Assembly (NCBI GenBank): GCA_004299085.1
Contig: SCQV01000508.1
Span: forward strand, 1-36,523
Origin: Chitinophagaceae bacterium
GTDB taxonomy: Bacteria > Bacteroidota > Bacteroidia > Chitinophagales > Chitinophagaceae
Reading direction: 5' to 3'
Length of the DNA stretch: 36,523 bases
Shown here: in pieces, positions 838 to 34,988 of the stretch
Numbering within the stretch: position 1 is the stretch's first letter
How the letters are laid out: every line of letters starts with the position of its first letter
The notes under the pieces: model-generated
Seen by the model: the letters and a program-made list of their open reading frames with translations, nothing else
What the model was told of the DNA's origin: nothing
The model's database searches: none
Made by a program: the position numbers and the translations under genes

Positions 838-1086
838 TTATTCTTCTCCGGCAGCAGGCCCATTGTGCTTATACCAGCTATAGCCTATCACACCAATCAA
901 AGCAAATGGAATCGCTGCAATATATAAAATACCTCCGTTCAAACCCTTAGCAGCATCAGAACCCTGTTGCGCTGCATCTAATGAACAAATAGAGCAGCCT
1001 TGCGCCATCACGTCAGGAATATTTATCAGCAGCATGATCACTATCAGACCTGCCATCATCATTCCGTATTTTCTTAAATTTTTCAT
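838..1086 (-). CDS. Small secreted/membrane protein with a CxxC pair, end of respiratory locus
   Basis: An 82-residue protein. The N-terminus (about 1-29) is a signal peptide or membrane anchor ending in MAQG. It is followed at once by CSIC (residues 31-34), a short polar segment, and a second membrane helix at about 53-71. The mature protein would expose two cysteines on the periplasmic side, close to the membrane. It lies 54 bp downstream of the DUF420 gene in the same direction, but a TAnnTTTG box at 1102-1109 suggests its own promoter. I do not recognise a named family. The position and the Cys pair make a role in oxidase assembly or metal/thiol handling conceivable, which is inference only. 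Confidence 0.8.
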   Translation of the reverse strand: MKNLRKYGMMMAGLIVIMLLINIPDVMAQGCSICSLDAAQQGSDAAKGLNGGILYIAAIPFALIGVIGYSWYKHNGPAAGEE

Positions 1087-1140: not shown

Positions 1141-1662
1141 TCAATAATAAGGGGCCATCATCATGTACACAATCACTCCGCTGATAGTTACCCACAGCCA
1201 CAAAGGCCAGGTAACACGCGCTATTTTCTTATGCTTCACGAAATTTCCTTTCAGCGCGCGGATCAATGTGATTAAAACTAAAGGAACAATTACAGCCGAA
1301 AGTACAATATGGCTGATGAGAATGGGAAAATAGATATACCGGATGATTCCTTTCCCCCCAAAATAATATTGCGGACTAAGGAAATGAAATGCCAGATATA
1401 CTACCAGAAAAAGTACCGATAATCCTACTGCCGAAAGATTGCAAGCCTTATGTGCTTTCACATTTTTATGCCGGATAAAATAAAAGCTGCAAAGCAGAAG
1501 AATGAAAGTGGTAAAGTTCAATAATGCCTCTATCAACGGCAACACTTTGATATTAAATCCTACAGGAATATTAGGATGAGGGATAAGAAATAATATGGCA
1601 ATTCCCACCGGAATGACAACGGATATCAGAATCAGTGGTATAGTCAGATTTTTGTGCTTCAT
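1141..1662 (-). CDS. DUF420 / CtaM-like oxidase assembly membrane protein
   Basis: A 173-residue polytopic protein with about five membrane helices (near 7-27, 41-63, 73-93, 109-133 and 149-168) and histidines at 65, 71, 93 and 118. It fits the DUF420 family, whose Bacillus member YozB/CtaM is needed to make active heme-copper oxidases. An upstream in-frame start at 1713 would add 17 charged residues and overlap the SCO gene deeply. I prefer the ATG at 1662 because it gives a clean first helix and an ATGA overlap with the SCO stop, implying translational coupling. Its place at the end of the oxidase locus supports the assembly role. Confidence 0.85.
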   Translation of the reverse strand: MKHKNLTIPLILISVVIPVGIAILFLIPHPNIPVGFNIKVLPLIEALLNFTTFILLLCSFYFIRHKNVKAHKACNLSAVGLSVLFLVVYLAFHFLSPQYYFGGKGIIRYIYFPILISHIVLSAVIVPLVLITLIRALKGNFVKHKKIARVTWPLWLWVTISGVIVYMMMAPYY

Positions 1663-2336
1663 TGTCCATTTTTCATCTTTTCGAGCATCAGCATGGAAAT
1701 ATCCCTCACACACTGCCTGACACGGGATGAATCGAAGGCATCATAATAACCTCTTACATATTGGTTTTTCCCCATTAAAATAAACACAGGTGAATATAAT
1801 GAGGTATCACTACTGTTTGCTTTTTGCAAGGTAATCTCAAAATCTGTTTTTGCCATAGCTAATATTTCAGGCCTGCTGCCGGTCAAAAACCACCACACAT
1901 CATGATTGACCTGAAGGCTGTCTGCATAGTTTTTTAAAAGAGTAACCGAATCATGTAGAGGATTTGTGCTAAGTGTAAGAATATGGAAACCAGAATCACT
2001 GCGTTCATACGTATTTTCTATCTTCTTTAAGATGGCCGACATGTGGGAGGCTTTAATGCTATCCGTCGTAGGGAAAAACGTAACTAAGGTTACTTTGCCA
2101 ACGAGATCTTCCCTTGAAATAGTATTTCCGATCTGATTGGTCAGGCTAAAATTATTCAAGCGATGATATACCGTATCAAAATGCTCCTTACCCTTCTCAT
2201 AAGTGCCGTGAATACTTTCTACTACATAATGGCGAGGCATTTGCAAGTCTTTCTTGCTGATGCGATATAAAATAAAAGCGCCGATAACGGGAAGGGCTAA
2301 GATGAAAAGTGGTACAACCTTATTCCACTTCCACAC
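1659..2336 (-). CDS. SCO1/SenC-like protein lacking copper ligands
   Basis: A 225-residue protein with one N-terminal membrane anchor (about 7-25) and a thioredoxin-like SCO domain: VTLVTFFPT, LTLSTNPLHDSV and YVRGYYDA fit SCO landmarks and align with the second SCO protein in this window (18776-19405). Intact SCO proteins carry CxxxC plus a distant His for copper. Here, by-eye alignment puts Thr91 and Lys95 in place of the two cysteines and Tyr181 in place of the histidine, so copper binding of the classic kind is not expected. It lies between the subunit IV and DUF420 genes, overlapping the latter by ATGA. It may be a scaffold or regulator in oxidase assembly; this is inference. Confidence 0.85.
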   Translation of the reverse strand: MWKWNKVVPLFILALPVIGAFILYRISKKDLQMPRHYVVESIHGTYEKGKEHFDTVYHRLNNFSLTNQIGNTISREDLVGKVTLVTFFPTTDSIKASHMSAILKKIENTYERSDSGFHILTLSTNPLHDSVTLLKNYADSLQVNHDVWWFLTGSRPEILAMAKTDFEITLQKANSSDTSLYSPVFILMGKNQYVRGYYDAFDSSRVRQCVRDISMLMLEKMKNGQ

Positions 2337-2378
2337 TGGTTTTATAGATTCCTTTAGTGAAATGATTGCCGGTTTTTA

Positions 2379-2848: not shown

Positions 2849-3595
2849 TCAGAACAAATAAAAGCAGGTAAAGATATAAACCCAAACCAGATCCACAAAA
2901 TGCCAGTATAATCCAACCTTTTCCACCATTTCGTAATGGCCTCTCCTTTCGTAGGTACCTTTCACGACATTCATTAAGATAATAAAATTGAGAATTACCC
3001 CTGAAAATACGTGGCATCCGTGAAAGCCCGTAATCAGGAAAAAGAAAGCGCCAAAAGTGCTCGGCCCGGGAGTCGGATGCCCGTTAATCACAGGTCCCAG
3101 CATATTATGAGTGATTGTAACTCCTTTAGTCGTGATTAAATCCACCCATTCAAAGGCCTGACAGCCCAGGAAAAGCAAACCGCCGACAATTGTATAGATC
3201 AACCATTTTGCAACTTCCTTTTTCTTCTTTAAATGACCGGCATGAACGGCTAATACCATCGTAACGGAACTCATAATGAGGATAAAGGTCATCAAGCTTA
3301 CCGACAATAATGGCAAGGTCGCATGTATTCCGAAGAATGAATCGAATGCCACATCGGCATCCGGCCAGAAAGGCTCACTGAATCTGGAACTTCCGTAAGA
3401 AACCAAAAATGCACCAAAAGTAAAGGTGTCTGACAGCAGGAATATCCACATCATCAATTTGCCATAACTCACGTTGAATGGCGAAACCCCTCCCCGCCAC
3501 CACCCATGGGTATTGGTCTCTTTGTCTATAAATTCTACCTGCGGATGCTCATGTAATTGAGCGGCTGATGTTACAGCTATAGCTGAATCACTCAT
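2849..3595 (-). CDS. Cytochrome c oxidase subunit III (long copy)
   Basis: A 248-residue polytopic protein of the heme-copper oxidase subunit III family. It carries the family motifs FHGCHVFSG (about 191-199) and YWHFVDLVWVYIF (about 230-242), with membrane helices from about residue 45 onward and a longer luminal/loop region near 68-95 and 155-180. Subunit III has no metal centre; it stabilises subunit I and supports proton uptake. It is the second of two adjacent subunit III genes (the other is 3626-4201), a duplication often seen in Bacteroidota oxidase loci. I saw no frameshift. Which copy is in the purified oxidase cannot be told from sequence. Confidence 0.9.
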   Translation of the reverse strand: MSDSAIAVTSAAQLHEHPQVEFIDKETNTHGWWRGGVSPFNVSYGKLMMWIFLLSDTFTFGAFLVSYGSSRFSEPFWPDADVAFDSFFGIHATLPLLSVSLMTFILIMSSVTMVLAVHAGHLKKKKEVAKWLIYTIVGGLLFLGCQAFEWVDLITTKGVTITHNMLGPVINGHPTPGPSTFGAFFFLITGFHGCHVFSGVILNFIILMNVVKGTYERRGHYEMVEKVGLYWHFVDLVWVYIFTCFYLF

Positions 3596-3625: not shown

Positions 3626-4201
3626 TTATTTTATCAAAAGAAAAAAGATGTACAAATAAATCCACAAACCATCCACAAAATGCCAATAAGTGGCTACTAC
3701 TTCCACAGGTACAGGGTCATAGGTTCTTGTATGCCGCCTGTAGGCCCTTGCAAAAATGATAAACAGGGCAATCACACCGCCCAATACATGCAACATGTGC
3801 GCCGATACAATAATATAAATCAGCGCAGCAGAAAGGTTCCATTGAATGGTAATTCCCCTGCTATACATATTGGAGAATCCTAACCCCTGACCAATTAAAA
3901 ATAAAAGACCTAATAATGCGGTAACTGTAATTAATGTTTTATAACGCATCATCTGATGCTCCTTAAAACTCTTCACAGATAAATGCATTGTAAAACTACT
4001 GATTATAATAATCGCGGTAGAAAACCAAAACATATCAGGCAACTTAAAGTCCTGCCATGAACTATGCGATTCCATTACAATATATGCACTCGTAAAAGCT
4101 GCAAAGAACATACAAATACCTGCAATCGCAAGCCACATATTAAACTTATATGGATGTATGCGCTTTCTTTTTGCACTTGCTGTCATTACTCCTGTATTCA
4201 C
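3626..4201 (-). CDS. Cytochrome c oxidase subunit III (short copy)
   Basis: A 191-residue subunit III family protein with about five membrane helices and the motifs SAHMLHVLGGV and TYWHFVDGLWIYLYIF near the C-terminus. It lacks the first two helices of classic seven-helix subunit III, as is common for short quinol/cytochrome oxidase subunits. It is only about 6 bp from the ctaB stop and about 30 bp from the second subunit III gene, so all three are probably co-transcribed. It is clearly homologous to the neighbour at 2849-3595 but too divergent to be a recent copy. Confidence 0.9.
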   Translation of the reverse strand: MNTGVMTASAKRKRIHPYKFNMWLAIAGICMFFAAFTSAYIVMESHSSWQDFKLPDMFWFSTAIIIISSFTMHLSVKSFKEHQMMRYKTLITVTALLGLLFLIGQGLGFSNMYSRGITIQWNLSAALIYIIVSAHMLHVLGGVIALFIIFARAYRRHTRTYDPVPVEVVATYWHFVDGLWIYLYIFFLLIK

Positions 4202-4207
4202 GATCTG

Positions 4208-5149
4208 TCAATGTATTTTGTCAGCCAGCAATGCTAATTGCATCACCGTCAGGTAAATATAAGAACTAAACATAAGCTTCCGGGCATGTTTCACATCACA
4301 AAAGCGATATAAATTAACCGCCCTGTAAAGAAAATACAATCCCAATGCCATAATAATCACTGCCGATATGATCCCCGATATGTTAAAATAATACGGGAAC
4401 CAACCTACGGGAATCAACATGGCCGTATAGGTCACTGCCTGCATGGCCGAATACCCGTTCTTCCCATTTTCTGACGGCAGCAGCTTAAACCCTGCTTTCC
4501 GGTAATCGTCATAAGCCACCCACCCGATAGCCCAGAAATGCGGGAACTGCCATAGAAACTGAATAGCAAACAGTATCCAACCTCCATAGCTCAAAGGTCC
4601 TGCAATCACTCCGGCGGCAGCTACCCATCCGATTAACGGAGGTAAGGCGCCAGGAAAAGCTCCCGCGAACACTGCCAATGAGTTCCATTTCTTCCACGGT
4701 GTATAAACGAATCCATACAATACAAAAGACAAGAAGCTTAGAAATGCACTCAATCCGTTAAAGCAAAAACCCATAATAAGCAAACCGGCCACCAGCAAAA
4801 TACTCAGAAAAATCGCCGCCTCCCTCACTTCCATTCTGCCATCAGGCAACGGACGTTTGCGGGTGCGCGCCATCTTACGGTCAGAATCCCGCTCAATAAT
4901 CTGATTAACTGCATTAGCAGCTCCGGTGATACACAAACCACCTATAAACAGTAAAAGAACTTTCCAAATATCCACTTCTACTCCAGGCACCAACAAATAG
5001 GCAATTACACAAGAAAAAACCACCATAAAGCTCAACGTAAACTTAGTAAGCTGATAATAATCCCTGGCTTTTGCCATAACAGCAACCTGCCATGAAAACT
5101 TTATGGTATCTTCTTCCATCATAACCGGTTCCTGCGCCACTCCACTCAT
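4208..5149 (-). CDS. ctaB: Heme O synthase (protoheme IX farnesyltransferase)
   Basis: A 313-residue UbiA-superfamily membrane prenyltransferase. It adds a farnesyl group to heme B to make heme O, the precursor of the heme A needed by the oxidase encoded alongside. The first Asp-rich motif is at about 82-99 (NQIIERDSDRKM followed by ARTRKRPLP), the typical CtaB/CyoE signature, and about eight to nine membrane helices follow the cytosolic N-terminus. YDDYRKAGFKLLP (about 212-224) forms the second conserved loop. It sits between coxA and the subunit III genes. A heme A synthase (CtaA) is not present in this window. Confidence 0.93.
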   Translation of the reverse strand: MSGVAQEPVMMEEDTIKFSWQVAVMAKARDYYQLTKFTLSFMVVFSCVIAYLLVPGVEVDIWKVLLLFIGGLCITGAANAVNQIIERDSDRKMARTRKRPLPDGRMEVREAAIFLSILLVAGLLIMGFCFNGLSAFLSFLSFVLYGFVYTPWKKWNSLAVFAGAFPGALPPLIGWVAAAGVIAGPLSYGGWILFAIQFLWQFPHFWAIGWVAYDDYRKAGFKLLPSENGKNGYSAMQAVTYTAMLIPVGWFPYYFNISGIISAVIIMALGLYFLYRAVNLYRFCDVKHARKLMFSSYIYLTVMQLALLADKIH

Positions 5150-5223: not shown

Positions 5224-7098
5224 TCAGACCGGCTGTGGTTGATTTTCTTTCGCCACTTCTATTTCCTCTTCAGGCCCCAGGGGCACATTCTGAGGAATAA
5301 AATCTATTCCGTTTTTACTGTAGTCATAAGGCCAGCGATATACTTCAGGAATCTCACCAATCCAATTACCGTGTCCCGGATGAATGGGAGTAGTCCATTC
5401 CAACGTATTGGCTTTCCACGGGTTAGGATCCGTTTCTTTCCTTCCTTTGAAAATACTGTAAAAGAAATTAAATAGAAACAGGATCTGCGCAATAAACACC
5501 ACGATAGCCACAACACTGATAAAGGTATTCACTCCCTCGAAAGGAGCGAACGTATGCCATGCCGCATAATCATAATACCTTCTCGGCATACCAGCCAATC
5601 CCTCATAGTGCATCGGCCAAAATATCAGATAAGCGCCGACCAATGTGATCCAGAAATGGATATATCCCAGCGTATTATTCATTTTCCTCCCGAACATTTT
5701 AGGGTACCAATGGTAAACACCGGCACACATTCCTAATATGGAGGCTACTCCCATTACCAGATGGAAATGTGCAATGATAAAATAAGTATCGTGAATATCC
5801 AGATCTATCGCTGAATTAGCCATCCATATTCCAGTCAGTCCACCCGAAATAAACGCGCTGACAAAACCTATCACAAACAAACACGGAACACTTAAATGAA
5901 TATTCCCCTTCCACATAGTACCTATCCAGTTAAATACCTTAATCGCCGAAGGCACCGCAATTAACAAAGTCAATAGAACAAAGAATGCACCCAGGTAGGG
6001 ATTCATGCCGGTTACGAACATGTGATGCGCCCATACCAGAAATGCCAGGATACAAATTGCAAAAAAGGCAGTTACCATTCCTCTATACCCGAATATCGGC
6101 TTCCTGCAATTTATCGCGATCACTTCTGACGCAATTCCCATAGCAGGCAAAATCACAATATATACCTCCGGATGCCCCATAAACCAGAATAAATGCTGAT
6201 ACAAGATTGGGCTGCCGCCTACATTAGGCAATGCATGTCCGCTAATATAAATGCTATTCAGATAAAAGCTTGTGCCCAAATGTTTATCAAAAAACAACAA
6301 CACTAAACCGGTAATTACTACAGGGAAAGAAAGCAATCCAAGAATGGCTGTTACCAATAATCCCCATATTGTCAAAGGCATACGGCTCATGCTCATTCCC
6401 TTTGTTCGCATATTCAAAATAGTAGATATATAGTTAATACCCGCAAAAATCTGTGATATAAAGAAAAGCAAAACCGCGATAAGCCATAGATCTCCTCCTG
6501 TGCCGGAGCCGGGTGATGCATCCTTTAATGCGCTCAAAGGCGGATAAGCAGTCCAGCCTCCTGAAAAAGGACCCGTGCTGACAAACAGGGAAGAAAACAT
6601 AACGACGCTGGCAATGAAGAATATCCAATAGGACAGCATATTCATGAAAGGCGAAGCCATATCCCTGGCGCCTAACTGCAGAGGTATCAGCAGGTTGGCA
6701 AAAGTTCCGCTCATTCCTGCCGTTAATACGAAAAAGAGCATGATGGTACCATGCATAGTCACTAAACCATAATAAGCTTCAGGCGTAAATTGTCCATTGG
6801 GCGCCCAATTTCCGAAAATAGTGTGCAACCACATAAAATGGTCATTCGGAAAACCTAACTGCAGCCTGAACAGGACGGAGAAAAAGCCACCGATAGTGGC
6901 CCAGATGATTCCGGTAATCAGAAACTGCTTACTAATCATCTTATGATCCTGGCTAAAAATATACTTGGTGATAAAAGGCTCATGGTGATGTATCCCGTGC
7001 CCCTCCGCTACCTGCGTCTCATGGCCTGTGGGAACAGGTATTGCCACAGCCTGAGGATGCGTTATCTCCTGATGGGGATTATTCATTTCGTTGCTCAT
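5224..7098 (-). CDS. coxA: Cytochrome c oxidase subunit I
   Basis: A 624-residue catalytic subunit, about 12 membrane helices, that reduces O2 to water while pumping protons. Visible ligands: His116 (MHGTIMLFF) and His446 for the low-spin heme, His444 (IIAHFHLVMG) for the high-spin heme, and His309 (GHPEVY), His358 and His359 (WAHHMF) for CuB. Glu311 and the cross-link Tyr313 in HPEVY mark an A1-type enzyme. The N-terminal extension is His-rich (about 25-40) and cytosolic. The C-terminal tail after the last helix is polar and long. Its neighbours coxB and ctaB complete the core. The N-terminal ATG at 7098 is the only sensible start. Confidence 0.97.
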   Translation of the reverse strand: MSNEMNNPHQEITHPQAVAIPVPTGHETQVAEGHGIHHHEPFITKYIFSQDHKMISKQFLITGIIWATIGGFFSVLFRLQLGFPNDHFMWLHTIFGNWAPNGQFTPEAYYGLVTMHGTIMLFFVLTAGMSGTFANLLIPLQLGARDMASPFMNMLSYWIFFIASVVMFSSLFVSTGPFSGGWTAYPPLSALKDASPGSGTGGDLWLIAVLLFFISQIFAGINYISTILNMRTKGMSMSRMPLTIWGLLVTAILGLLSFPVVITGLVLLFFDKHLGTSFYLNSIYISGHALPNVGGSPILYQHLFWFMGHPEVYIVILPAMGIASEVIAINCRKPIFGYRGMVTAFFAICILAFLVWAHHMFVTGMNPYLGAFFVLLTLLIAVPSAIKVFNWIGTMWKGNIHLSVPCLFVIGFVSAFISGGLTGIWMANSAIDLDIHDTYFIIAHFHLVMGVASILGMCAGVYHWYPKMFGRKMNNTLGYIHFWITLVGAYLIFWPMHYEGLAGMPRRYYDYAAWHTFAPFEGVNTFISVVAIVVFIAQILFLFNFFYSIFKGRKETDPNPWKANTLEWTTPIHPGHGNWIGEIPEVYRWPYDYSKNGIDFIPQNVPLGPEEEIEVAKENQPQPV

Positions 7099-7183: not shown

Positions 7184-8263
7184 TTATTTCGCAAAAGCTA
7201 CTTTGGCTTTGGTACTGTCAGACGGAGGCAAAGATGTCTTTGTGCCAATGGTATCTTTTACATCCGGAGTTGAAGCCGGATTCAGGTCGGCCATTGCTAT
7301 CTTATACTGTGACTCCTGACTTGCTTCCCATTGATTAAACTGTTGTTGTGTTTCCACAATGATGGTAGCTCTCATGGTAAAATGACCTTGTCCGCATAAC
7401 TGATCGCACGCAAGTTCATATACAAAATCAGGATCGCCGGTTTTCTTAATCATCTGAGCAGTCGTAATGGTAGGGGTAAACCAAAGAGTAGTCGGAATAC
7501 CCGGCATTGCATCCATTTTTAATCTGAAATACGGCATTCCCACGTCATGGATCACATCCTGCGAATTAATAATTAACCTCACCGGACGATCCACCACCAA
7601 ATGCATCACGCCGGAAGAAACCACATCGTCATCATTAGCCTGATCACTCCAGTCCTGGCCTAACGGATTATCTTTCGCCGGGTCTATCAGCTTATAATCT
7701 TTTCTGCCTAAAACACCATCCTTTCCCGGATAACGAAATAACCAGGCAAACTGTTTGCCCGTCACCTCCACTACCATAGCATTCTTAGGTGCCGGTCCGG
7801 TAATCTCAAACCATTCCTTTAATCCGAAAATAGTCAATACCAGCATTACAAGTGCCGTGATAGCCGTCCACGTAATTTCCAAAGGATCATTATCCGGAAG
7901 GTATTTTGCTTTTCTGCCCGGCTTATTATGATAGCGAAATCCAAAATAGAACAGCAGTATCTGTGTGACAAAGAAAACAAATGCGGTAATGATCCCTGTA
8001 ACAATGATCATGTGATCAATGGCCGCACCCTGCACAGAAGCCGCCACAGGGAGTAACTTACCCTTCAACAACTCCTGACAAATATAAATTCCGATCAGTC
8101 CAAAAATGAGAAATAGAATCAACAACCAAGCATTCACCTTATCGGATTGCTGTACGGATTTTTCTTTTCCCTTCAGAACAGACACATATTCACTGGCTTT
8201 GGAAATCTGAATAATGATCACCAGTATTAGTACAACAGTAATAACTATCAGCAAATCAGTCAT
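7184..8263 (-). CDS. coxB: Cytochrome c oxidase subunit II (CuA)
   Basis: A 359-residue protein with four hydrophobic segments (about 4-20, 45-62, 83-109 and 130-148), two more than the classic two-helix subunit II, and then a cupredoxin domain. The binuclear CuA site is intact: His239, Cys286, Cys290, His294 and Met297 in CDQLCGQGHFTM; the usual Glu between the cysteines is Gln, giving a backbone ligand. There is no C-terminal cytochrome c domain, so electrons must come from a separate cytochrome or heme domain, most likely ActE or the fused domain of ActA. It lies between actF and coxA in the locus. Confidence 0.95.
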   Translation of the reverse strand: MTDLLIVITVVLILVIIIQISKASEYVSVLKGKEKSVQQSDKVNAWLLILFLIFGLIGIYICQELLKGKLLPVAASVQGAAIDHMIIVTGIITAFVFFVTQILLFYFGFRYHNKPGRKAKYLPDNDPLEITWTAITALVMLVLTIFGLKEWFEITGPAPKNAMVVEVTGKQFAWLFRYPGKDGVLGRKDYKLIDPAKDNPLGQDWSDQANDDDVVSSGVMHLVVDRPVRLIINSQDVIHDVGMPYFRLKMDAMPGIPTTLWFTPTITTAQMIKKTGDPDFVYELACDQLCGQGHFTMRATIIVETQQQFNQWEASQESQYKIAMADLNPASTPDVKDTIGTKTSLPPSDSTKAKVAFAK

Positions 8264-18775: not shown

Positions 18776-19405
18776 ATGTCAAAAAAAGGAATATCAAAAA
18801 AGACGATGTATATCGTCGTCGGCTTTGTAGTGTTGGTCGGCATTTTCTATGTTATTGCCACATCCATGTCTGTTAAAAACCAGCCGGGTCTTCCTGTCTT
18901 GGGTAATCCGGGTCATACTGTAGGACCTTTCGCCTTTGTCGATCAGGAAGGAGATACCGTTACCCAAAATAATTTAAACGGGAAAGTTACCGTAGTGGAT
19001 TACTTCTTCACACGCTGCACCAGCTTTTGTCCGAAAATGAATGCTAACATGGACAAGATCTATGAAGAGTTTAAAAATAATGCTGATTTTCAGATCATGT
19101 CCAATACGGTTGACCCTGCACACGACAGCGTGCCGGTGCTTGCTAAATATGCCGAGCAATATGGCGCCAGTCCGAAAGTATGGAAGTTTTGTACAGGCCC
19201 TCGTCACGAACTCTTTGATGTGGCTGTTCATCAATATCTGCTCAGTGTAGCTGATTCTCTTGGAGTAAATGATCAGTTTGTGCACACTCAATATTTTGCT
19301 TTGGTTGACAAAGACCGCCAGATTCGCGGTTTTTATAATGGACTCAAACAAGGTGATCTGAATAAATTAAAGCAAGACATCAAGATTTTGCTGAAGGAAG
19401 AGTAA
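18776..19405 (+). CDS. SCO1/SenC family copper chaperone (intact)
   Basis: A 209-residue protein with an N-terminal membrane anchor (about 11-30) and a SCO thioredoxin-like domain facing the periplasm. The copper site is intact: Cys81 and Cys85 in RCTSFCPKM, and His170 in FVHTQYFALVDKD. SCO proteins deliver copper to, or reduce, the CuA site of oxidase subunit II. Landmarks shared with the ligand-less SCO at 1659-2336 include the DPAHDSVP segment and the IRGFYNG strand. It sits outside the oxidase operon, on the opposite strand, yet is the only SCO here able to do the classic job. Confidence 0.93.
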   Translation: MSKKGISKKTMYIVVGFVVLVGIFYVIATSMSVKNQPGLPVLGNPGHTVGPFAFVDQEGDTVTQNNLNGKVTVVDYFFTRCTSFCPKMNANMDKIYEEFKNNADFQIMSNTVDPAHDSVPVLAKYAEQYGASPKVWKFCTGPRHELFDVAVHQYLLSVADSLGVNDQFVHTQYFALVDKDRQIRGFYNGLKQGDLNKLKQDIKILLKEE

Positions 19406-28308: not shown

Positions 28309-29844
28309 TCAGAAATCAATTTTTGCGAAACAAACAAAATTCCGGTAAATACAAGGTATCACTACCTGCCGGGCGCTGATCTGCTTACCATATCGCGGCA
28401 TCCAGGTATAACCCTGGTCCAAACCGCGCAGCGTAGGCAGCTTGGACAATTTTCCATCAGGTGTTGCACTCATCACCGTAATCAGATAAGAGCGTCTGAA
28501 CGGCTCATTGTAAATAAATTGTAACGCGCTGGCAGTATTAACCATCTTATAAGATAAAAATGCATCGTTGTTATCATCTGATTGTTGCTTACGGATGAAG
28601 TTGCTCCATTCCAGCTTGCCATCAGCATTATAAGAAAGCACGGCTACATCGTTGTAATGGTATTGCGTACCCTGGTTATTATTCCAATTGTAAGGATTAT
28701 AATAAAAAGGAGAGAAAGGAGAGTAATAATAGGGCGAATAATAAGGTGAAAATCCCCAGGGGCTATACATATAATTCCACCTGTTCCACGGTTGATTACC
28801 CGAGGTAGTATAATAACTTTCAGCAGTCAGTAGAAATCCTCCATCACCACGAACCACCAATTGACGAATAAAATAGTCGTTAAATGCATTATTGATCGAA
28901 GAATTGTTTTTGGCGTTCATTTTCAGGTCGTCACTGAAAGGAATGAATTTTAAATCATCAAAAGAACTTGCATTCCAGTTATATTCTCCCGCATAAAGTC
29001 CTATAATATTCCCCCTGCGCTGCTGGGTGTAAAAAGAAGCCATAAAAACTTTATTATTCACATTGTCCAGCGTCAATTTCATTTCATCTAAATATTTCCC
29101 CTGAAGGTTTAAGGGATGTACAATGAAGCTGTCTGTCATCGGTGGCTTTATAATCAATGCAGCGTCAGAAAGATTCCCGTTTGCTCCGGCCCGGGCTTCT
29201 TTTATAAAAACAAAATGACCGTCATTACTTAAAAGAAAGTCGCTCAAAAAAGACCTGTTTTCCCGCATAGACAAGGTAAGCCTGCTGTTGTTGACAAGGT
29301 CGAGCTGTGAATCGAATAAGAAAGTATAGAAGATATTATTATTATCATTGTCCTGGTTGATTTTATAAATAAGGACTTTTTGCATGTTATCCGAATGAAT
29401 AACTGAATAGATCTTAGCTTTTACATTGCCGTTTCCCACGCGGCTCGAATCAATCAATATCGGTTGCCCAATCATATTGGCATCCTGATCCATCAAAACG
29501 CCATAGCAATAAACATACGCTTTATACTGAAACTGGTAGATCATCTGAAAATGATCAGGGTAAGCTACAAAATCCACATTTAATGTCCTGTCTGGTAAAA
29601 ATTGTAAAGGAACATTTTTCACCAGCTTCATGTTTTCGTCATAGACGGAAATAACATTGTTACCCCGGTTATTTTTATATACCAAAATATCACTGCTCAC
29701 TTTACCGATGATTTCCACAGAAGTATTCCGGTAATCATCATCGCGTTGTGGCATAGAATAGGTAACCTGCTGTGACCATGCAGGGATGGCACAGAAAGTA
29801 ATTGCCATTACTCCCAAAGACAGGATGATAGTTTTCATATTCAT
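28309..29844 (-). CDS. Secreted protein of unknown function, Tyr-rich (paralogue 1)
   Basis: A 511-residue exported protein with a signal peptide (to about 24, ending AWSQ). I do not recognise a family. It is homologous to the neighbouring 29994-31496 gene along its length: shared features are PLQFLPD, MIYQFQYKAYVYC, the ILIDSS segment, and a common C-terminal block with LPTLRGL, MPRYGKQ and VVIPC, ending FAKIDF. The repeated short strands suggest a beta-rich, perhaps propeller-like fold. Between about residues 375 and 420 it carries a Tyr/Pro/Asn-rich low-complexity stretch absent from the paralogue. Followed closely by a membrane protein gene. Confidence 0.85.
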   Translation of the reverse strand: MNMKTIILSLGVMAITFCAIPAWSQQVTYSMPQRDDDYRNTSVEIIGKVSSDILVYKNNRGNNVISVYDENMKLVKNVPLQFLPDRTLNVDFVAYPDHFQMIYQFQYKAYVYCYGVLMDQDANMIGQPILIDSSRVGNGNVKAKIYSVIHSDNMQKVLIYKINQDNDNNNIFYTFLFDSQLDLVNNSRLTLSMRENRSFLSDFLLSNDGHFVFIKEARAGANGNLSDAALIIKPPMTDSFIVHPLNLQGKYLDEMKLTLDNVNNKVFMASFYTQQRRGNIIGLYAGEYNWNASSFDDLKFIPFSDDLKMNAKNNSSINNAFNDYFIRQLVVRGDGGFLLTAESYYTTSGNQPWNRWNYMYSPWGFSPYYSPYYYSPFSPFYYNPYNWNNNQGTQYHYNDVAVLSYNADGKLEWSNFIRKQQSDDNNDAFLSYKMVNTASALQFIYNEPFRRSYLITVMSATPDGKLSKLPTLRGLDQGYTWMPRYGKQISARQVVIPCIYRNFVCFAKIDF

Positions 29845-29993: not shown

Positions 29994-31496
29994 TCAGTAA
30001 GCTATTTTGGCAAACAACAGGCTGCTTCCAATCGTACAGGGAACAACCACTTCACTCCTGCTGACCTGTACACCATACCTGGGCGCCCAGAAGTATTTAT
30101 TGGCAAGCCCTCTCAAAGTGGGCATTTGCTCCAGTTTCTGATTATCTCCATAGCGATAGTCGGTAAGCAAATACCGGTAATTATTCAAAAACCGGAAAAC
30201 ATGATGCGATTTATTCATCAAAAAATGCAACGCATGGCCGATATTAACCATCATATAGGATGCATACACAGAAGATAAATCGCTTCCCTGGTCTTTTTTT
30301 ATCTTCTGAATACCGGTTAATACGCCGGATGAATTGATGGTAAAAAACGCCATATCATTATGATGCGTAACATTATTAATATCCGTATATTTTTCTTCGG
30401 CTATCAATAAAGTGGTTTCATCGTTACCAACCACCAGTTGATTCAGGTTATAATCATTAAATGTTTCATGCAATCCTTCGTCCTTGCTTTCCATATTTTT
30501 TTTAATTGAGTCTGTAAGCAATACTGTATTGTATTTTAAGAGCTTCAGACTGTCCATACTGAAAGTCCATAACATCAGCCTGTCAATATTGTGAATCTTA
30601 TTATCATATCCGAAAGCGCTTACCCACAACTTTTGATGCAGCTCATCTATTTTTAAAACAGGATTTGATTTCAATAAATGTCCGCCGGAAGAAACCGTAT
30701 CGCTTAGCAGCGTATCTCTGCCTGCCGGCTTGATGTATATCTTCATTCGCTGATAATACGGGTCCGAAGGATTTGTTTTATTACCCATCAGAAAATAGAG
30801 ATTACCATCATCAGCTACCTTAAACCTGACAGGCTTTTCATCCAAAACGGCATAAGATAAATTCACAGCACCTGTATTTAAAATACGCATGGCACTATCA
30901 TATAAAAAAGTATGAATATGATATTCCAGAGAATCTTCTTTCCCCAACATTTCAAATATCATGATTTTGCTTTTATCGTCTGAATGAATGGCAGCATAGG
31001 CTTTATCTCCAAAAACCTGCTCCGGATGAATGGTTTTATCAATCAACACAGGCGTTGATAAAGGCACTGCATCTTCATTTAACTGCACCGACTCACAATA
31101 GATATCTTTTTTGTGTGTGTATTGATAAATCATGATTACTTTATTTCCGAGGTTTACAAAATCCTCTTTCACGGTTTCTTTTGGAAGGAATTTGAGTGGA
31201 ACCTGGTCAATGATATTCATGGAATCATTATACAATACCATATTATACTCATTGTAGGAAGATTTAAAGATCAGCAAATGATTGTGACAGTATCCCACAA
31301 TATCAAAGTCAGTATTTTGAATATTATCTCCTAATGGAACGGAATATTCTATTTGTTGTCCGCTGGTATTTATATTACCTGCAGTCAAAACAAACAAAAC
31401 CAGTATTGCGGTGTTGAATATTGGATGACTTTTCACAAAAACAGTCTTACTTTCAGGTAACAATATACATATTTTTAAGGTTTTAGAAAAATTCAT
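29994..31496 (-). CDS. Secreted protein of unknown function (paralogue 2)
   Basis: A 500-residue exported protein, homologous to paralogue 1. Shared landmarks include PLKFLPKETV, MIYQYTHKKDIYC, PVLIDKT, MPTLRGLANKYFWAPRYG and the C-terminal VVVPC with FAKIAY. The reading frame extends to 31613 but that would overlap the divergent gene; the ATG at 31496 is preferred, though the signal sequence is then unusually long (hydrophobic part at about 27-40). An internal GTG at 31436 would give a more ordinary signal peptide. It lacks the Tyr-rich insert. A 149-bp gap separates it from paralogue 1. Confidence 0.82.
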   Translation of the reverse strand: MNFSKTLKICILLPESKTVFVKSHPIFNTAILVLFVLTAGNINTSGQQIEYSVPLGDNIQNTDFDIVGYCHNHLLIFKSSYNEYNMVLYNDSMNIIDQVPLKFLPKETVKEDFVNLGNKVIMIYQYTHKKDIYCESVQLNEDAVPLSTPVLIDKTIHPEQVFGDKAYAAIHSDDKSKIMIFEMLGKEDSLEYHIHTFLYDSAMRILNTGAVNLSYAVLDEKPVRFKVADDGNLYFLMGNKTNPSDPYYQRMKIYIKPAGRDTLLSDTVSSGGHLLKSNPVLKIDELHQKLWVSAFGYDNKIHNIDRLMLWTFSMDSLKLLKYNTVLLTDSIKKNMESKDEGLHETFNDYNLNQLVVGNDETTLLIAEEKYTDINNVTHHNDMAFFTINSSGVLTGIQKIKKDQGSDLSSVYASYMMVNIGHALHFLMNKSHHVFRFLNNYRYLLTDYRYGDNQKLEQMPTLRGLANKYFWAPRYGVQVSRSEVVVPCTIGSSLLFAKIAY

Positions 31497-31518
31497 ACTT
31501 CTTTTCCACGGAAATAAT

Positions 31519-32439
31519 ATGGAAACTGTTTTAATTACCGGAGGCACCGGAATGATTGGATCTGCATTAACGTCATTTCTGAAAGAAGAAGGATATAAGA
31601 TAATCATTCTCACCAGAAAAAAAGAAAAGTTATTGAAAAACGATGAAGTAACTTATGGATGGTGGAATCCGGAAAGCAATGAAATAGATTTTTCGGTGTT
31701 AGACGAAGCTGATCATATTATCCATCTGGCTGGAGCGAATATAGGCCGCGGAAAGTGGACAAAGGAAAGGAAAAGAGAAATCAGAGACAGCCGGATATCC
31801 GGAACCCATTTTCTGACGGAACAATTAAGCCGGTATTCAAACAAGGTCGTATCATTTATCTCTGCCTCGGGAACCGGATATTACCGGCAAAACGGAGAGC
31901 TTCTGTCAACAGAAAAATCACCGGCGGCCGGCGACTTTCTGGGAGAAGTATGTGAATCCTGGGAAGCCGAAGCCCAACGCATAGCGGTTTTAGGAAAAAG
32001 AGTTGTCATTCTTCGAACAGGTATTGTGCTTAGTCCCGAAGGCGGGATGCTGCCTGCCCTCATCCGGCCACTGAAATACGGAATTGCCACTATTCCGGGA
32101 AATGGACAGCAATGGATCAGTTGGATACACATTCGGGATTTAGTGCGATTATACGCCACAGCGATTATGAATAAAAATTTCAATGGCGTTATCAATGCAG
32201 TATCCCCTTTTCCAGCCACGCAATTTCAAGTGGTTACAGCACTCGCACACATCGTCAAAGGACGTAATTATTTGTCATTTTATGCTCCGGCGCCCCTTAT
32301 CAGGCTTTTTATGGGAGAAAGGGGACAGGAATTATTGAAAAGCAACAAGGTCTCTGCTGAAAAATTATTACAGACCGGTTTTGAATTTTCATTTCCTACT
32401 ATTGGGAGCGCCCTGGAAGATTTGTATAGCAAAAAATAA
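31519..32439 (+). CDS. TIGR01777-type SDR epimerase (YfcH-like)
   Basis: A 306-residue protein of the extended short-chain dehydrogenase superfamily, TIGR01777 branch. The Rossmann fold begins at once with LITGGTGMIG (5-14), and the family block HLAGANIGRGKWT and the SASGTGYY motif follow. PGNGQQWISWIHIRDLVRL is another hallmark. Substrate is unknown for the family, which is often linked to cell division or sugar metabolism only by context. It diverges from paralogue 2 with only 22 bp between the start codons. Confidence 0.92.
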   Translation: METVLITGGTGMIGSALTSFLKEEGYKIIILTRKKEKLLKNDEVTYGWWNPESNEIDFSVLDEADHIIHLAGANIGRGKWTKERKREIRDSRISGTHFLTEQLSRYSNKVVSFISASGTGYYRQNGELLSTEKSPAAGDFLGEVCESWEAEAQRIAVLGKRVVILRTGIVLSPEGGMLPALIRPLKYGIATIPGNGQQWISWIHIRDLVRLYATAIMNKNFNGVINAVSPFPATQFQVVTALAHIVKGRNYLSFYAPAPLIRLFMGERGQELLKSNKVSAEKLLQTGFEFSFPTIGSALEDLYSKK

Positions 32440-34682: not shown

Positions 34683-34988
34683 TTACTCCTTCGCTATTCT
34701 TCCTCTCCAATAATCAGGTTTTCTATGCAGGTGAGCAACAGCAACAATCGTAATTTCTATTTTACCGGAATCATACAAATAAATAATACCATAAGGGAAT
34801 TTATTGACCAAGCATCGGCGTGTGTTGACACTAAATGAGGAGTACGCTTCGGGAAGTGCCTTAATACGCTCTACAGCATCTTTTATGGCAATGACAAATC
34901 TTTCTCCCAGTCCTTCCAACTGCTGTTCATAATAGACAGCTGCCTCATCCATTTCAAGGGCTGCTGCTTTATAGAACCGGACTTTCAA
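34683..34988 (-). CDS. ParE/RelE-family toxin
   Basis: A 101-residue toxin of the ParE/RelE superfamily (plasmid stabilisation type). Typical start MKVRFYKAAALEMDEAAVYY and the end VAVAHLHRKPDYWRGR match family members that poison gyrase or translation; which target applies cannot be told. The start codon is TTG at 34986-34988, overlapping the antitoxin stop as TTGA; an in-frame stop just upstream rules out an earlier start. Weak initiation coupled to antitoxin translation would keep toxin levels low. Confidence 0.9.
   Translation of the reverse strand: MKVRFYKAAALEMDEAAVYYEQQLEGLGERFVIAIKDAVERIKALPEAYSSFSVNTRRCLVNKFPYGIIYLYDSGKIEITIVAVAHLHRKPDYWRGRIAKE

Follow-up and report, generated by a model that had tools for sequence, protein, structure and literature searches.

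The SCO protein encoded inside the oxidase operon of the window – the whole stretch of 36,523 nucleotides that was analysed, from a Chitinophagaceae bacterium – has lost all three of its copper ligands. Ligand loss in the operon copy is common to a clade of three genera, recurs in a second family of the same class, and is accompanied in every loser read by an intact SCO. We suggest, at a probability of about 0.55, that the operon SCO (scoA) keeps a second, copper-independent task in oxidase assembly, docking being the likeliest, and that the copper and thiol chemistry is carried out by a separate SCO (scoB).

The operon gene (scoA; 1659–2336, minus strand) begins with GTG at 2336, ends with a stop codon at 1661–1659 and encodes 225 amino acids in a full-length, unbroken reading frame. 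Its identity as an SCO rests on the translation, on a match to Pfam SCO1/SenC (PF02630; 44.4 bits against a cut-off of 22.8) and on a confident AlphaFold model (pLDDT 87, pTM 0.77), for which the best Foldseek match among solved structures is BsSco (1xzo_A; TM-score 0.83 on the target). The predicted protein comprises one membrane anchor – a single helix at residues 4–30 – and an SCO/thioredoxin-like domain from which the copper ligands are missing. A preliminary description of this DNA had held that the gene is not broken and that the landmarks of the fold are kept: the reading frame, the Pfam match and the model all agree with it. The start codon is uncertain because the sister genome carries GAA where the window has GTG; translation may in fact begin at a non-standard codon as many as 13 codons further upstream. 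The stretch of 13 codons that separates this GTG from the cox4 stop (2337–2375, minus strand) is similar in the sister, and several of the differences are synonymous.

Alignments of scoA with scoB, with relatives and with B. subtilis Sco agree on the three ligand columns. Combined with a reading of the codons on the minus strand, they place Asp92 (GAT, 2061–2063) at the first ligand cysteine, Ala96 (GCC, 2049–2051) at the second and Tyr181 (TAT, 1794–1796) at the ligand histidine; both the CxxxC motif of copper-binding SCO chaperones and the distal copper-ligand histidine are absent. The preliminary description was right that all three ligands are gone and that Tyr181 stands for the histidine; the residues it gave for the cysteines, Thr91 and Lys95, are each one position off. 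The only other genome of the window's genus carries an 80% identical scoA with the same Asp, Ala and Tyr, and this gene is the one found in the named record of Chitinophagaceae bacterium FW021_bin.31 (L152; the genome itself is G001).

Searched with the scoA protein, all 294 genomes of the window's family, which span 101 genera, gave matches, and a reading of the resulting table puts at least two SCO-like matches in all but about 12 of these genomes. The operon SCO was read in 133 genomes representing all 101 genera and then in 20 more; one of these 153 (G013 of genus g13), cut before the histidine, was left out, so that 152 of the 294 searched genomes were counted at the ligands. The operon copy carries Cys, Cys and His in 142 of the 152 and has lost ligands in ten: both genomes of the window's genus (g1), all five read of g15, the one of g54 and two of three of g88. 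Judged from these sequences, the loss in scoA is not a matter of chance, given the prevalence of Cys-Cys-His in the family and the shared D/A/Y of the sister. Ligands are missing from nine other genomes of the family as well, which makes an assembly error unlikely. Genus g15 is Thermoflavifilum, the neighbour genes of two of its loci (L133, L135) being identical to those of named records (L186, L190), and g54 appears to be CRAIB_MAG81 (L160), whose motif and ORF position match locus L023. Across 73 named loci, planctomycetes and others included, 68 are intact, one is truncated and four depart from Cys-Cys-His, namely L152, L160, L186 and L190. No ligand loss was found in other families of the order, where 40 of 40 loci from 39 genomes, 30 of them beside DUF420, have Cys-Cys-His. 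In the operon SCO of Thermoflavifilum (L131–L135) a conserved FYCF[ST]C, a CxxC, ends at the first ligand position.

The history of the loss was traced on trees from which SCO was left out, because the SCO tree carried a warning of long-branch attraction; this artefact is thereby set aside as a source of the clade. A tree of DUF420, COX4 and COX3, built from 60 rows chosen among the 165 of a fast tree, unites g1, g54 and Thermoflavifilum in one clade of eight species (support 100/99, with the bootstrap not fully settled; the clade is also present in the fast 165-row tree). Each of the eight species has lost the histidine and at least one cysteine. The second cysteine survives in g54 and Thermoflavifilum has a cysteine at the first position, so that both are lost only in g1; the distribution suggests that the histidine went first and that stepwise erosion followed. 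The expectation that the ligand-less form would be conserved as a clade is thus borne out in part: the loss is common to three genera, but loss of all three ligands is confined to the window's genus. The alternative offered alongside it, plain decay restricted to this genome, is contradicted by the sister and by the three-genus clade, and purifying selection likewise rules out the decay of one genome. Within g88 one of the losers pairs with an intact species (G164) to the exclusion of the other loser (99/87, the g88 rows being represented only by DUF420, which makes up 34% of the columns), a topology that would require two losses if regain is excluded.

Further evidence of recurrence comes from a family (f23) in the same class as that of the window. 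Twenty loci were read from other families of the class. Eighteen were intact; the two that lacked ligands both belong to f23 and lie between cox4 and DUF420. Sixty of the 61 f23 genomes searched were read (G598 was left out): in 31 the operon SCO is intact, and in 29, distributed over 11 of 25 genera, it has lost at least one ligand. All three ligands are gone in 15 of these 29, the histidine in 24 (in eight of them the histidine only), both cysteines in 18 and one cysteine in three. The neighbours are constant: cox4 and cox3 flank the gene in 60 of 60 genomes and DUF420 in 59, the one exception being intact. On a tree of the neighbour genes, made by a quick method with no bootstrap, the best topology has eight changes, at least five of them on starred branches. 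With the topology of g88, these changes lead us to reject a single old loss for all cases, provided that regain is excluded. Some losers may still bind copper, given that eight of the 29 in f23 retain both cysteines and that Thermoflavifilum and g54 retain one.

A critical issue is whether an SCO competent to bind copper is present where the operon copy is not. In the window this is scoB (18776–19405, plus strand; PF02630, 84.9 bits), in which alignment bears out the earlier observation of intact Cys81, Cys85 and His170. A PF02630 search of the window's genome returned seven matches above the cut-off. Four, matched over just a portion of the profile, resemble other thioredoxin-like proteins; the remaining three are scoA, scoB and a protein on another contig (C274), and the ligand set of Cys, Cys and His is complete in the latter two. 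An intact scoB-type SCO is present in nine of the ten losers of the family, and the tenth (G273, 89% complete) has another intact SCO. In f23 a separate SCO was read in all 29 losers; every copy has Cys-Cys-His, and none has DUF420 within the stretch analysed. The separate SCO is also intact in all 29 genomes read among the 142 of the window's family with an intact operon copy (a thirtieth locus, L364, proved to be the operon copy of G033), and in the three f23 genomes with a single SCO match (G577, G589 and G625) that SCO is intact.

The setting of scoA is that of an oxidase operon, as the preliminary description had placed it. On the minus strand the gene sits between cox4, for oxidase subunit IV (COX4_pro; 2379–2798; PF03626, 44.4 bits), and a CtaM-like DUF420 gene, ctaM (1141–1662; PF04238, 142 bits for the ORF 1141–1713). 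It lies downstream of ORFs, all on the same strand, that we take to encode oxidase subunit III (2849–3595), a second subunit III-like protein (3626–4201), a heme O synthase-like protein (CtaB; 4208–5149), oxidase subunit I (CoxA; 5224–7098) and oxidase subunit II (CoxB; 7184–8263); each of the first four has the same place in relatives, and the gene order is the same in L152, L153 and L186. The CuA motif of CoxB, read directly, is intact (CDQLCGQGHFTM), as it is in the sister (L152) and in one Thermoflavifilum (L186); the requirement of the oxidase for CuA copper has thus presumably persisted. Searches for PCuAC and for Cox11 each found nothing in the 14 family genomes examined, and matched 3 and 1, respectively, of 14 control genomes. 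After DUF420 comes an 82-residue protein (838–1086, minus strand) in which a CSIC motif and a probable signal or anchor segment can be made out by eye; neither Pfam nor NCBIfam matches it at E 0.001, and L152 and L160 carry it at the corresponding position.

That the genome divides its labour between two SCO proteins, as was first proposed for the window, is supported because the loss is clade-wide and recurrent and because an intact SCO is present in every loser read, ten in the window's family and 29 in f23. The course of events may have been as follows. Both paralogues would have bound copper ancestrally; once the second covered copper delivery, the first would have been free to lose its site, repeatedly, while its other task was kept. 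The likeliest such task would be membrane-anchored docking alongside two other products of the operon, CtaM (DUF420) and CoxB (the CuA subunit), the operon SCO holding apo-CoxB, CtaM or both in place for the copper-loaded SCO. We infer any function of the ligand-less protein, its docking role and the identity of its partners from sequence. Docking at CtaM and CoxB is favoured because the linker and tail are constrained, because the neighbours are fixed, and because a hand-over of copper between CtaM and Sco has been proposed: in a 2026 study CtaM is suggested to export copper that is then bound by Sco (PMC13344008). The same study notes Sco-DUF420 fusions in planctomycetes (PMC13344008). More tentatively, the operon SCO could be a copper-free, permanent docking platform or accessory subunit that joins CtaM to CoxB in those Bacteroidota lineages from which PCuAC and Cox11 are absent. 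If the split between the two proteins is real, then the operon SCO is retained for something other than binding copper.

A less probable though still serious explanation is relaxed selection after redundancy, by which the operon SCO would be on its way out and held mainly by translational coupling to the downstream ctaM. The pattern of divergence bears on this directly. Between genera of f23 (six without both cysteines against 15 intact), identity falls from 0.44 in intact to 0.19 in lost proteins for the core, and from 0.50 to 0.45 for the linker, 0.60 to 0.47 for the tail, 0.63 to 0.44 for the anchor and 0.67 to 0.58 for the neighbour genes. Between genera of the window's family (four losing against 97 intact) the corresponding falls are from 0.51 to 0.29 for the core, 0.55 to 0.51 for the C-terminal tail, 0.41 to 0.36 for the linker and 0.37 to 0.23 for the anchor. 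After the loss the core diverges fast and the linker and tail less so, though the anchor too becomes less conserved, few losing genera (six and four) standing behind these figures. The faster divergence of the core would fit slow decay too, and so would the loss of other well-conserved core residues: among positions at least 80% conserved in intact proteins, F89, P97, D125, Y159 and F179 are changed in most of the ten losers of the window's family. These changed positions probably lie near the copper site, and P34, D54, W148, R195 and G196 are among those kept in ten of ten. Shortened or very divergent cores in two f23 genera (g244, g247) point the same way, as does the pN/pS of scoA between window and sister (0.142, with synonymous sites near saturation), which exceeds that of scoB (0.086), DUF420 (0.083) and COX4 (0.113).

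Against the view that the gene is being lost stand the absence of inner stops from all ten losers of the window's family and all 29 of f23, the conservation of linker and tail, and the fact that three genera have the loss in common. Moreover, dN/dS is well below one: 0.03–0.10 in those comparisons, between window and sister and within Thermoflavifilum, for which it could be computed, and 0.073–0.221 for f23 loser pairs (six of nine pairs computable), against 0.116–0.175 for three closer f23 intact pairs. Coupling to ctaM finds a basis in the window, where the DUF420 ATG overlaps the scoA stop as ATGA; such an overlap occurs, however, at only 20 of 199 SCO loci checked, and 19 of these 20 are not operon copies.

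A copper-independent assembly task remains our preferred reading, and it differs from a further explanation, rather improbable to our minds, in which the operon SCO has passed from assembly factor to structural part and now belongs permanently, as an accessory subunit, to the oxidase or to an ACIII-oxidase supercomplex. Its place among subunit genes and the location of constraint – in the linker and the RIRGYY...DEI tail and not in the active site – would suit such a subunit, but a sequence search of solved structures (E 0.01) found only SCO, thioredoxin-like and uncharacterised soluble chains and no chain of an oxidase complex. Least probable is that the operon SCO has kept a capacity to bind metal, copper or another, by means of Asp, Tyr, or a remaining Cys or Met: Asp or Glu does occupy the first cysteine position in g1, G088, g182 and g244, the CxxC of Thermoflavifilum is conserved and CxxxC persists in the His-only losers, but because the replacements vary by lineage (D/A/Y, S/C/P, N/A/H, V/A/M and others) and cysteine is altogether missing from 11 of the 24 f23 loser rows inspected, no common new metal site is seen. 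The C-terminal Cys209 (at about 1710–1712 in the window) is found in every one of the ten losers of the family and in 32 of the 142 genomes with an intact operon copy; as a new ligand it is set aside, being present also in the intact g88 species, and in view of the Cys-free rows of f23.

SCO proteins lacking ligands are not without precedent. Plant HCC2 is a eukaryotic, mitochondrial protein that is not known to be encoded in an oxidase operon. The nearest precedent to scoA is HCC2 of Arabidopsis, which likewise has an SCO fold and an anchor, has lost the copper motif and is accompanied by an intact paralogue, HCC1 (PMC6696091, PMC3971200, PMC6307045). HCC2 partly rescues a yeast sco2 sod1 strain (PMC6307045) and is dispensable for normal oxidase activity (PMC3971200); a review names a role of SCO besides copper binding as an open question and describes HCC2 as lacking the site yet functional (PMC6696091). 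The resemblance extends to scoA in each respect, with ligands lost, fold kept in the predicted structure and an intact paralogue in the genome. It differs in that the loss in scoA is bacterial, lies inside an oxidase operon and has arisen several times. The two losses are presumed to be separate because scoA has intact relatives.

Comparison with characterised bacterial proteins is also instructive. In its Pfam match, predicted fold and predicted anchor scoA is like the SCO/YpmQ/PrrC/ScoI proteins (PF02630), from which it departs in having neither CxxxC nor the distal histidine. ScoA and ScoB of P. denitrificans, unlike scoA, both carry the copper motif. They are likewise two SCO paralogues that serve the oxidase in one organism (PMC9145763), and human SCO1 and SCO2 form a similar pair in which both members carry the motif (PMC6307045). 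We found no earlier report of a ligand-less SCO in Bacteroidota in the open literature, subscription journals (such as the Sco genome survey of Banci et al. 2007) falling mostly outside that scope. Within the literature searched, ligand-less SCO proteins are known as a kind, and the bacterial, operon-bound and recurrent form appears to be new.

What bacteria have provided here is a natural experiment, several times repeated, in which the copper site is removed or damaged, the gene stays by ctaM and an intact SCO is present in each of the losers read. The ligand-less operon proteins isolate the copper-independent part of SCO, with the linker and tail suggested as the regions that matter. There is also a caution for annotation: a "SCO family protein" in such operons is often unable to bind copper in the known way.

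Elsewhere in the window, two neighbouring minus-strand genes (28309–29844 and 29994–31613) look by eye like paralogues and have a common C-terminal PTLRGL...PRYG motif, and a third (34683–34988, minus strand) encodes what by eye is a small RelE/ParE-like protein.
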